Shown here in pieces: positions 9,904-20,633 of a DNA stretch of 64,000 nucleotides. Source of the DNA: Sneathiella marina (lineage in GTDB: Bacteria; Pseudomonadota; Alphaproteobacteria; Sneathiellales; Sneathiellaceae); assembly GCF_023746535.1 (NCBI RefSeq), contig NZ_CP098747.1:1494364-1558363 (forward strand), in the 5' to 3' direction. The position numbers and the translations under genes are program-made. Under the pieces are notes generated by a model, which was not told the origin of the DNA, made no database searches, and saw only the letters and a program-made list of their open reading frames with translations. Each line of letters starts with the position of its first letter. Positions within the stretch are counted from its first letter, which is position 1.

Positions 9904-10327
9904 CCTCTTATCCTGTATGATAGGGCGGATTGGGTCAAAAGGAAATTCATGAGTTAGGCGGGTATATTGTAACGCGGCCTTGTCCAGGCTGACAAACCGC
10001 CGCCAGGCTTAAGGATCTTCAGTCAATCCACCTGCCAGACTGCTAGCTTGCCGGGGCAAAAGGGCGGAACAGTCGTCCGGGAACGGGGTGACCCTCGTCA
10101 TCGACGGTAAAATAATAGGCGTAGATCTAGGCGCCTGATAAACGACAGGTGAACCCCATGCCAAAGCTTGAGTTGGAAATTTCCTGAGTTCGTGAATGTT
10201 GCCTTGGGAAAAAGGGAATGTAGGTAGGAGTTTCGTGTGACAAAATAGAAATTGGATTTGCTGCGCTCCAGATAGTATAATTAGTATATTGTAATATAAA
10301 GGGAAATGATCGGAAAAGGAGCGGCAG
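9904..10327. other. Intergenic stretch containing the left edge of the duplicated segment
   Basis: Between the AsmA gene and the first membrane-anchored gene there are 424 bases without a complete gene. The first 281 bases are unique and hold the gene remnant noted above. From 10185 on the sequence is repeated at 15108. There is an AT-rich patch at about 10260-10310 directly upstream of the 10328 gene, which would suit a promoter. Confidence 0.5.
10043..10126 (-). pseudogene. Possible gene remnant, 27 codons of a C-terminus
   Basis: Read on the minus strand, the frame ending at the TAG of 10045-10043 gives IYAYYFTVDDEGHPVPGRLF followed by RPFAPAS, which looks like the end of a real protein. 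It is closed upstream by a stop at 10129-10127 and has no start codon. It lies 56 bases before the left edge of the duplicated segment, so an upstream part of the gene may have been lost by the rearrangement or mis-assembly. Chance cannot be excluded for so short a frame. Confidence 0.2.
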
Positions 10328-11224
10328 ATGACCCTTGATACCTGGAACAAAATTGTTATTGGGATCGCGACGCCGGTAATTGGTTTGGTGATTTCCGGCC
10401 TGACAATCTGGAATGGCATCAATACAAGTAGTAACAGCGCCCAATTGAAAGCGATTGAAGCAGAACTGGCAGCCAGTAAATTCGGCTTCGAGCAAATTAA
10501 GATAGTTTACGAGAAAACAACCAACTATCTGTCTGACTCCAATCAATCTGATGCCCATGGACGTGTTCTCATTGCCTTGATACGGAGTATTCCGGAGACC
10601 ACAACACGGGCGGAGCTTCTTGCCGTGTTATCAGAGCAATCTGAAAGTGACTATGTCGCGGCGCAAGCGGCGTCCACCCGCCAAACCGTCATAGATTCCG
10701 GGATCGAGCAGGGAACATTGCCGGAGAATTATAAACAGATTTCCGAGATGTCGCGGGGAGCGCCGATATCCAGCAAGACCTTCAGCGCAACCTGGCAGGA
10801 GGCCACCGGCACGCCTTATGATGTGATCGCAGCCCTGCCATCGACAAAGGTCATTGGCGACCCCCTGGCGTCGGCGACCTCCAAGAGATATACGGTGACC
10901 ACATTGGCTGGGTACGGCTTTCTGGATTCCGATGGCACGGAATGGCGAATACCGAAAGATGTGACCTTTAACGGTAACGCCGTCAACAGGCTTGCCTGGA
11001 ACACACTCGGCCCACCGCTCGCCAACGATTACACCTTCCCGTTGATGCTGTATAAATATCAGGTTGTGAATAATATCGGCAACATTGGGCAGCGCCGGAA
11101 AATGCTGTTCGAAGCTTTATTGAAGTCCGATGTAAATCCTGCGAAAACCGAACTTATACTGCAATATATAAATGCTGAATTTCTGTTCACCGACGACATC
11201 CCCGCCTTCAGCGGGAATAACTAG
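10328..11224 (+). CDS. Membrane-anchored protein with DUF1353-like C-terminus, left copy, 298 aa
   Basis: Identical at protein level to 15251-16147. Residues 8-28 form one membrane anchor ([20 protein letters not shown]), followed by a helical, possibly coiled-coil, region to about 110. The C-terminal third reads [29 protein letters not shown], then a tail with [12 protein letters not shown]. This resembles DUF1353, in which P-x-G-F-x-T-D-G-A-S-x-P-R-x-x-W precedes a HDY motif; here that HDY is replaced by a Lys/Tyr-containing stretch, so any activity is uncertain. The start has GGAGCGGCAG upstream. Confidence 0.6.
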
Positions 11225-11245
11225 TCGATAAGGGCCTGTGGAAAT

Positions 11246-11322
11246 TGGTCGGGGCGAGAGGATTCGAACCTCCGACCCCATCGTTCCGAACAATGTGCGC
11301 TACCAGGCTGCGCTACGCCCCG
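11246..11322 (-). tRNA. tRNA-Pro (CGG), left copy
   Basis: On the minus strand the acceptor stem CGGGGCG pairs with CGCCCCG. It has the D-arm GCGCAGCCTGGTAGCGC, an anticodon stem CATTG/CGATG with loop TTCGGAA (anticodon CGG), a T-arm with GGTTCGAATCC, and an encoded CCA, 77 bases in all. The D-arm sequence is the usual bacterial tRNA-Pro form. It is identical to 16169-16245. If the duplication is artefactual the genome has only one of these. Confidence 0.93.
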
Positions 11323-11406
11323 ACCGGTGGCAGGTCTGCCAATAGACGCGTTTTATACGCCCAAACTTGCGCTCTTCGCAAGGGAGAAATGGGGTGTGAC
11401 CGTCGT

Positions 11407-18535: not shown

Positions 18536-19396
18536 ATGAAAATATCTGAATTAATAGCCAAGACGCCGCTGAAACGGTTTGTCGACAAATCGCCCGTTGT
18601 GGCCGTCCTTCCCCTTTATGGCGTGATTGCGTCGGGCGGGAGCAAGCTGCGCGGGGAAAACCTTAATCTGTCTGGCATGGCGGAGAAAATTGAAAATGCT
18701 TTCGCGACAAAAAACCTGAGTGCTGTTGCGTTGCCGATAAATTCGCCCGGTGGCTCACCTGTGCAATCCTCCTTGATTTTTGATCGCATCCGTCAACTGG
18801 CCGATGAAAAAGAGATTCCGGTTTATGCCTTTGCCGAAGATGTCATGGCGTCCGGCGGATATTGGCTCGGGCTTTGTGCCGATGAAATTTATGTCAACCA
18901 GAATTCAGTGGTTGGATCGATTGGTGTCGTCTCTGCCGGCTTCGGGTTTACGGCGTTGCTGGAAAAGGTGGGTGTTGAACGGCGGGCCTATTCAGCCGGC
19001 GAAAACAAGATGAAGCTGGACCCGTTCAGCCCCGAAAAAGAAGAAGATGTTGTCTGGCTTAAAAAAATCCAAACGGAAATCCATGAAAGTTTTAAAGATC
19101 TTGTCAAAAACCGGCGCGGTGATCGATTGAAAAAACGCAAAGACAAAGAGCTGTTTTCAGGCGACGTCTGGACAGGTCCGAAAGCGGTCGAGCTGGGGCT
19201 GGTCGATGGTATTGCCGATATTCGATCCTTTATGCGCGAGAAATATGGCGAGAAAGTCAAGTTCAAACGATTTGAAGGCCGGCAGGGGTTCCTGCAGCGA
19301 AAATTGGGCCTTGGTGCCTCCGTTGGTGAAGACGCGGTGGAGACATTTATTGCCGCCATAAAAAATCAGGCGGCCTGGGCTCGGTTCGGATTATGA
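18536..19396 (+). CDS. S49 family serine peptidase (SohB/SppA-like), 286 aa
   Basis: This is a ClpP-fold serine protease of the SppA/SohB family, which degrades signal peptides or membrane proteins. Visible features are P-I-N-S-P-G-G-S-P (67-75), equivalent to the oxyanion loop, M-A-S-G-G-Y-W-L (104-111), and N-S-V-V-G-S-I-G-V-V (123-132), whose Ser128 is the likely nucleophile. The catalytic Lys should be in G-E-N-K-M-K (155-160). There is no N-terminal membrane anchor, unlike E. coli SohB, so it is probably cytoplasmic or peripheral. It follows trmN6 by 29 bases. Confidence 0.88.
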   Translation: MKISELIAKTPLKRFVDKSPVVAVLPLYGVIASGGSKLRGENLNLSGMAEKIENAFATKNLSAVALPINSPGGSPVQSSLIFDRIRQLADEKEIPVYAFAEDVMASGGYWLGLCADEIYVNQNSVVGSIGVVSAGFGFTALLEKVGVERRAYSAGENKMKLDPFSPEKEEDVVWLKKIQTEIHESFKDLVKNRRGDRLKKRKDKELFSGDVWTGPKAVELGLVDGIADIRSFMREKYGEKVKFKRFEGRQGFLQRKLGLGASVGEDAVETFIAAIKNQAAWARFGL

Positions 19397-19428
19397 TTCG
19401 CGCCTGTTTACAAAGGATAGGTCACTAG

Positions 19429-19653
19429 ATGTTCTCACCGACTAAAATCATTTTTATCGTGGTGGCCATCGCGCTGGTTTATTTCGGCCATAAATTCTAT
19501 CGCTCTACCATTGCGCCGAACCTGCAAAAGAATAAAAAGAACGCGGAATTCAAAGGCCGCTCGTCGGACAAAATGCTCGATCTGGAGGAATGCCCGGACT
19601 GTGGCTCCTTCGTTGCGGACCTGTCAGAACATAGGTGCAAAAGCGGAAAATAA
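19429..19653 (+). CDS. Small membrane protein with a C-terminal zinc-ribbon motif, 74 aa
   Basis: One hydrophobic segment at residues 5-22 (TKIIFIVVAIALVYFGHKFY) is followed by a charged linker rich in Lys, and ends in C-P-D-C-G-S-F-V-A-D-L-S-E-H-R-C, a Cys2-Cys/His arrangement that could bind zinc. This matches the pattern of the PP0621-type small proteins. It lies 32 bases after the S49 peptidase gene and upstream of glyQ; an operon is likely. Function unknown. Confidence 0.72.
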   Translation: MFSPTKIIFIVVAIALVYFGHKFYRSTIAPNLQKNKKNAEFKGRSSDKMLDLEECPDCGSFVADLSEHRCKSGK

Positions 19654-19727
19654 TCCCCGGTTTCGATGCCGGTTGACCGCAGCCAGCCTGACCCTTATGT
19701 TGCGGCGCACATATCAACAATCAGTCT

Positions 19728-20633
19728 ATGGTCAGTATTATGGCGAATAATGTGGCGTCTTCGCCGTCAACTTCTTTTCAGGACCTGATCCTGACATTAC
19801 AACATTTCTGGTCTGAAAAGGGATGCGTCATTCTGCAACCCTATGATTTGGAAGTGGGCGCCGGAACTTTTCATCCTGCAACAACCTTACGATCCCTGGG
19901 ACCCGAGCCCTGGAATGCAGCCTATGTTCAGCCGTCCCGCCGTCCAACCGATGGACGCTATGGGGAAAACCCGAACCGCGGTCAGCATTATTATCAGTTT
20001 CAGGTTCTGCTGAAGCCGTCCCCGGACAATATCCAGCAACTCTACCTGGAAAGTATCTATGCGCTGGGGATCGATCCTAAATCTCATGATATCCGGTTCG
20101 TCGAAGATGATTGGGAAAGCCCGACCCTGGGTGCCTGGGGATTGGGCTGGGAAGTCTGGTGTGATGGCATGGAAGTCAGCCAATTTACCTTTTTCCAGCA
20201 AGTCGGCGGGTTTGAATGTAATCCGGTTTCCGGAGAGCTTACCTATGGATTGGAGCGTCTTGCCATGTATGTGCAGGGCGTTGATCGCATGTATGATCTT
20301 GCCTGGAACAACGACGGTGTGACCTATGGTGATGTGTTCTTGCAAAATGAGCAGGAATTTTCCGCTTATAATTTCGAGCATTCAAATGTCGACATCCTGT
20401 TGCAGCATTTTAAAGATGCCGAAGTTCAATGTCAGGAAATCCTGGACGCGGGTCTCGCCTTGCCAGCGTATGATCAATGCATGAAAGCCAGCCATGTGTT
20501 TAACCTCCTGGATGCGCGGGGGGTTATCAGCGTGACGGAGCGGGCCGCCTATATCGGCCGGGTGCGGGCGCTTGCCAAAGGCTGTGCGGCGCAATGGCTG
20601 CGGGGCCGTGGACATCTGACGGAGGACGTGTAA
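19728..20633 (+). CDS. glyQ: Glycyl-tRNA synthetase, alpha subunit, 301 aa
   Basis: The alpha subunit of the alpha2-beta2 class II glycyl-tRNA synthetase, which forms glycyl-AMP. It starts [17 protein letters not shown], and goes on with [35 protein letters not shown] and [12 protein letters not shown]. All are hallmark sequences of GlyQ, and the length is normal. The start could be Met1 or Met5 (19740); there is no strong ribosome binding site at either. The next gene glyS starts directly after its stop. Confidence 0.97.

Follow-up and report, generated by a model that had tools for sequence, protein, structure and literature searches.

A 4.9-kb tandem repeat in the Sneathiella marina chromosome record is probably a single locus written twice by genome assembly

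The chromosome record of Sneathiella marina (assembly GCF_023746535.1, contig NZ_CP098747.1) carries two adjacent copies of a 4.9-kb segment, which were analysed here within a window of 64,000 nucleotides (positions 1,494,364 to 1,558,363 of the contig; the positions given below are counted from the first letter of the window). With high but not full confidence, we consider this feature an ordinary assembly artefact and not a real one: very probably, one locus was written twice by the assembly, and the left copy would not represent separate chromosomal DNA. This reading, which is based on sequence comparisons, is suggested by four points: the differences between the copies concern run lengths only, they are placed on one side of the joint, the conserved reading frames are those of the right copy, and the segment is single in the relatives. 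The most likely source is an untrimmed overlap between the start and the end of a circular contig, with a later rotation of the record, and not the juxtaposition of two separate contigs; the degree of confidence stated above refers to the artefact as a whole, the two-contig version included.

The self-comparison of the 64-kb window retrieved one repeat pair only, i.e., 10175-15107 versus 15097-20034. According to the base-by-base comparison, the two copies are directly adjacent, head to tail and in the same orientation (+ strand): the left copy spans positions 10185-15107 (4923 nt) and the right one positions 15108-20034 (4927 nt), the latter with whole reading frames common to the relatives. 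Once the runs of identical bases were collapsed, the two copies turned out to be the same (3490 runs out of 3490), with no substitution found across the whole unit; the left copy differs from the right one by 14 run-length changes (+1, -1 or +2), the sum of which is -4. The lengths, the number and sum of the changes, and the lack of substitutions correspond exactly to those given by a previous reading of the DNA alone (hereafter, the sequence-only reading). The same reading described nearly all the changes as one-base gains or losses in runs; this holds for 12 of them, located in runs of 2-7 bases (right-copy run length), but not for the remaining two, which are +2 changes at sites occupied by one base only in the right copy (T at 13865 and G at 14239). 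The collapsed sequence is not affected by 43% of random one-base insertions and by 51% of random one-base deletions; thus, 14 collapse-neutral events out of 14 are in themselves unusual for random indels.

The placement of the events is strongly uneven, since the final 1566 nt of the left copy contain 13 of the 14 (binomial P ~3e-6 if evenly placed), in agreement with the last 1.6 kb indicated by the sequence-only reading. They are clustered toward the end of the left copy, as claimed, but they do not adjoin the joint: the last event, at 14721, is followed by ~387 event-free nt, versus 4.3 events expected at the local rate (P ~0.014). At the other end of the unit, the two copies do not differ over the initial 1.6 kb. 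The search of the unit in its own genome retrieved these two places and two short matches at 76-80% identity, which are other tRNA-Pro genes (TGG and GGG).

All 14 events lie inside genes: one in ispB, one in a trmN6-like gene, nine in a gene for an S49 peptidase, and three in a 74-aa zinc-ribbon-like ORF. The Pfam analysis recognized polyprenyl synthetase, DUF2007, methyltransferase, Peptidase_S49, and glycyl-tRNA synthetase alpha and beta domains, while the names ispB and trmN6 were taken over from the sequence-only reading. In the left copy, ispB (11407-12430, - strand) is split by one event at 11962, the trmN6-like methyltransferase (12790-13626, + strand) has a C-terminus altered by one event at 13543, the S49 peptidase gene (13613-14472, + strand) harbors its nine events, and the small ORF (14505-14726, + strand) is hit at 14527, 14594, and 14721. 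Their right-copy counterparts are whole: ispB (16330-17352, - strand, 340 aa), the trmN6-like gene (17712-18506, + strand, 264 aa), and the S49 peptidase gene (18536-19396, + strand, 286 aa), followed by the small ORF (19429-19653, + strand, 74 aa). The statement that indels had destroyed or altered these four genes and glyQ in the left copy is valid for the first four; glyQ, instead, contains no indel there (14801-15107, + strand; a 105-aa ORF at 14801-15118) and is truncated by the joint, while the whole gene (19728-20633, + strand, 301 aa) extends from the right copy into unique sequence. The left copy also contains an unchanged orphan gene of 298 aa (10328-11224, + strand; right-copy counterpart 15251-16147) and a probably spurious tRNA-Pro(CGG) (11246-11322, - strand). 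In the right copy, tRNA-Pro(CGG) is located at 16169-16245 (- strand) and the DUF2007 gene at 17470-17715 (+ strand).

The reading frames were then compared with those of the relatives. Eighteen of 20 relatives' loci were used, the other two being dropped as outside the genus, and a right-copy frame was scored as conserved when its protein aligned gap-free within 8 residues of the site at an identity of at least 30%. The right-copy frame was gap-free in 18 of 18 loci at the ispB site, in 9 of 18 at the trmN6 site, close to the C-terminus, and in 18, 18, 18, 18, 18, 18, 18, 17, and 13 of 18 at the nine S49 sites. At the three sites of the small ORF the values were 15, 9, and 0 of 16 loci, the last one concerning residue 73 of 74, beyond the reach of the test. 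Overall, the frame of the right copy is kept at 13 of the 14 sites, in 9-18 of the 16-18 relatives' loci matching the gene; hence sequencing-type errors in one copy and conserved frames in the other are both present, with 13 of 14 sites testable.

A second comparison probed the window with the ORFs of at least 70 aa from eight stretches of four relatives. Of 60 ORFs with qualifying hits in positions 1-15107, 10 were split between frames, all of them inside the left copy: four ispB orthologues, three S49 orthologues, and three shadow ORFs overlying these genes (no split was flagged for the S49 orthologue from the fourth relative). In the control region 15108-44000 only one ORF out of 291 was split; it has 75 residues, covers the beginning of another gene but in a frame other than that of the gene, and can be read as a shadow ORF. 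Since positions 1-10174 and 44001-64000 have short matches only in the four relatives, the effective control goes from 15108 to about 40000. As far as the frames can tell, only the right copy is sound, because the conserved frames belong to it and the split ORFs are confined to the left one. Among the relatives' loci, that of Sneathiella glossodoripedis JCM 23214 (L029) has an ispB match broken into three pieces and a glyQ match broken into two, a pattern suggestive of frameshifts, which may be errors in this draft genome.

The comparison with related genomes proposed by the sequence-only reading was also carried out at the level of copy number, using as a query positions 17470-20633, corresponding to the last 2.57 kb of the unit plus 0.6 kb of unique sequence. 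The query matched 36 of 39 relatives (20 of 23 within the genus, 16 of 16 within the class); among the matches listed, no relative of these 36 had two over the same part of the query. Touching, near-identical direct copies of the last 2.57 kb of the unit are therefore found here and in none of the 36 matching relatives out of 39, and a same-genus relative assembled as a single 3.94-Mb contig (G012) has one copy. This evidence is weaker than it appears, since many of the relatives are drafts of many contigs, which may collapse an exact tandem repeat. The genomes searched included no second assembly of the same species, the best relative match being 75% identical over 2.5 kb. The left edge of the unit could not be checked through the synteny of the relatives, because the adjoining 298-aa gene has no match in the 24 relatives searched; it has no Pfam match either, and this orphan gene is thus situated beside tRNA-Pro.

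Regarding tRNA-Pro(CGG), ARAGORN found one gene in the fetched 20-kb stretch of two relatives, two in that of a third, and none in that of a fourth. In the relative G001, two identical 82-nt stretches with tRNA-Pro(CGG) lie 4312 bp apart, each followed by N letters (L043:1320-1401 and 5632-5713); either the tRNA is truly duplicated in this relative or a scaffold may have been joined there at a repeat.

The chromosome record itself provides indications on the origin of the joint. It consists of a single contig of 4,067,215 bases, in which one base precedes the dnaA start codon ATG (Pfam Bac_DnaA); the first and last 20 kb showed no overlap beyond one chance 16-mer. The one-base offset at the start (L037:1-2) looks as if the rotation had been off by one. 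Provided that the circular molecule was output by the assembler as a linear contig, a record cut at dnaA without overlapping ends implies that the original seam of the contig must be internal. A rotated record with non-overlapping ends is what the start/end overlap of one contig calls for, and for this reason, i.e., one contig cut at dnaA whose own ends do not overlap, this origin is preferred to that from two contigs.

From these marks (the paired copies, the type of errors, the conserved frames, the single state in the relatives, and the record start at dnaA) we infer an account that includes the read type, the overlap step, and the behavior of polishing. A long-read assembly of the circular chromosome would have produced a linear contig with start and end overlapping by about 4.9 kb; the overlap would have been left untrimmed when the ends were joined, and the rotation to dnaA would then have placed the seam at 15107/15108. 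The right copy would correspond to the start of the contig and the left copy to its thinly supported end, where run-length errors would have been kept in the consensus; the polishing reads would suit the right copy better, so that the left copy would stay uncorrected. The sequence-only reading had proposed a poor contig end placed beside the same sequence and not merged with it; the artefact is supported by our data, with the refinement that the two ends of one circular contig are likelier than separate contigs.

Passages of the long-read assembly literature (PMC4699355, PMC6966772) name run-length mistakes as systematic read errors. The untrimmed circular-contig overlaps dealt with in passages on Circlator (PMC4699355) and in a long-read assembler benchmark (PMC6966772) resemble the present case in the near-identical head-to-tail repeat of some kb, with one poor copy, in a single contig rotated to dnaA; this case differs in that the left copy is not at its poorest right beside the seam, its last 387 nt being clean. 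Three aspects speak against the artefact. The clean final 387 nt do so mildly, as the quality of a fading contig end should worsen right up to the seam, which is expected of such ends though not strictly defining; the supposed other contig end, at the start of the right copy, does not fit neatly, since its 1.6 kb are devoid of differences; and the weak match at the joint, of the kind seen in duplications through microhomology, is again a mild objection. We also counted against this account that a published sequencing method for the strain was not found in the literature searched.

Within the artefact, the alternative source is that two contigs, or a contig and a gap-closing piece, shared an end and were placed next to each other. 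The local picture would be identical to that of the one-contig overlap; however, a second seam would be needed elsewhere in the chromosome, and a single record cut at dnaA is more simply explained by one seam, which makes this source rather unlikely.

Tandem duplication through microhomology, independent of RecA, occurs in bacteria; the resulting copies are direct and adjacent, and a short match is present at the breakpoint. At the joint, the end of the left copy, GGACAATATCC (15097-15107), meets the unit start, TGAGTTCG, and the left flank directly before the unit, GGAAATTTCC (10175-10184, + strand), resembles the unit end GGACAATATCC. The two share 3 exact bases, a level reached by 1.7% of random pairs, or, when one gap and one mismatch are allowed, 9 of 11 columns, a weak match that ~0.8% of random pairs of window positions equal, a figure that counts one side of the joint alone and that both sides would roughly double. 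No repeats were found within 300 nt of each unit edge. A duplication by a mobile element or at an att site in tRNA-Pro was ruled out, the left edge being ~1 kb from the tRNA and the 300-nt surroundings of the edges containing no internal repeat.

A real and very recent duplication, formed at this GGA(C)AAT(A/T)TCC-like match in the strain or in a fraction of the cultured cells, is an improbable alternative to the artefact, kept in consideration because the match at the joint is what such an event would show. The 14 indels alone would then be consensus errors, due to reads mapping to the other copy or to a low depth of the duplicated form, and only the left-copy consensus would be poor. The exact identity apart from run lengths is in line with this possibility, and the clean last 387 nt would suit reads crossing the joint. 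On the other hand, mapping errors should hit both sides of the joint, whereas one copy shows run-length changes only, on one side; the duplication is listed in none of the 36 matching relatives; and long reads, if used, should resolve 10 kb. Lastly, a real old duplication with the left copy decaying as a block of pseudogenes, to which the four genes disrupted or altered in that copy and whole in the other might point, is hardly credible: none of the 14 changes is a substitution (P 6e-5 even on the assumption that substitutions account for just half of natural changes), and they are located in runs of 1-7 bases, 13 of them within a single third of the unit.

Should the left copy be spurious, the record would exceed the true chromosome length by about 4.92 kb, and several of its features would be false, namely one of the two tRNA-Pro(CGG) genes, the paralogues of the 298-aa orphan gene and the DUF2007 gene, and the broken or altered versions of ispB, trmN6, the S49 peptidase gene, the zinc-ribbon-like ORF, and glyQ. 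A real duplication, instead, would double the dose of tRNA-Pro(CGG), ispB, and the S49 gene in the cells that carry it. The practical use of the artefact reading is the correction of the record; moreover, the comparison of run-collapsed copies represents a simple screen for such seams in other finished genomes.

The 74-aa ORF (19429-19653) has no Pfam match, and the term zinc ribbon refers to its Cys pattern only. Located between the S49 gene and glyQ, it exhibits one N-terminal hydrophobic stretch and a CPDCG...C tail, and it has a match in 16 of the 18 relatives' loci.
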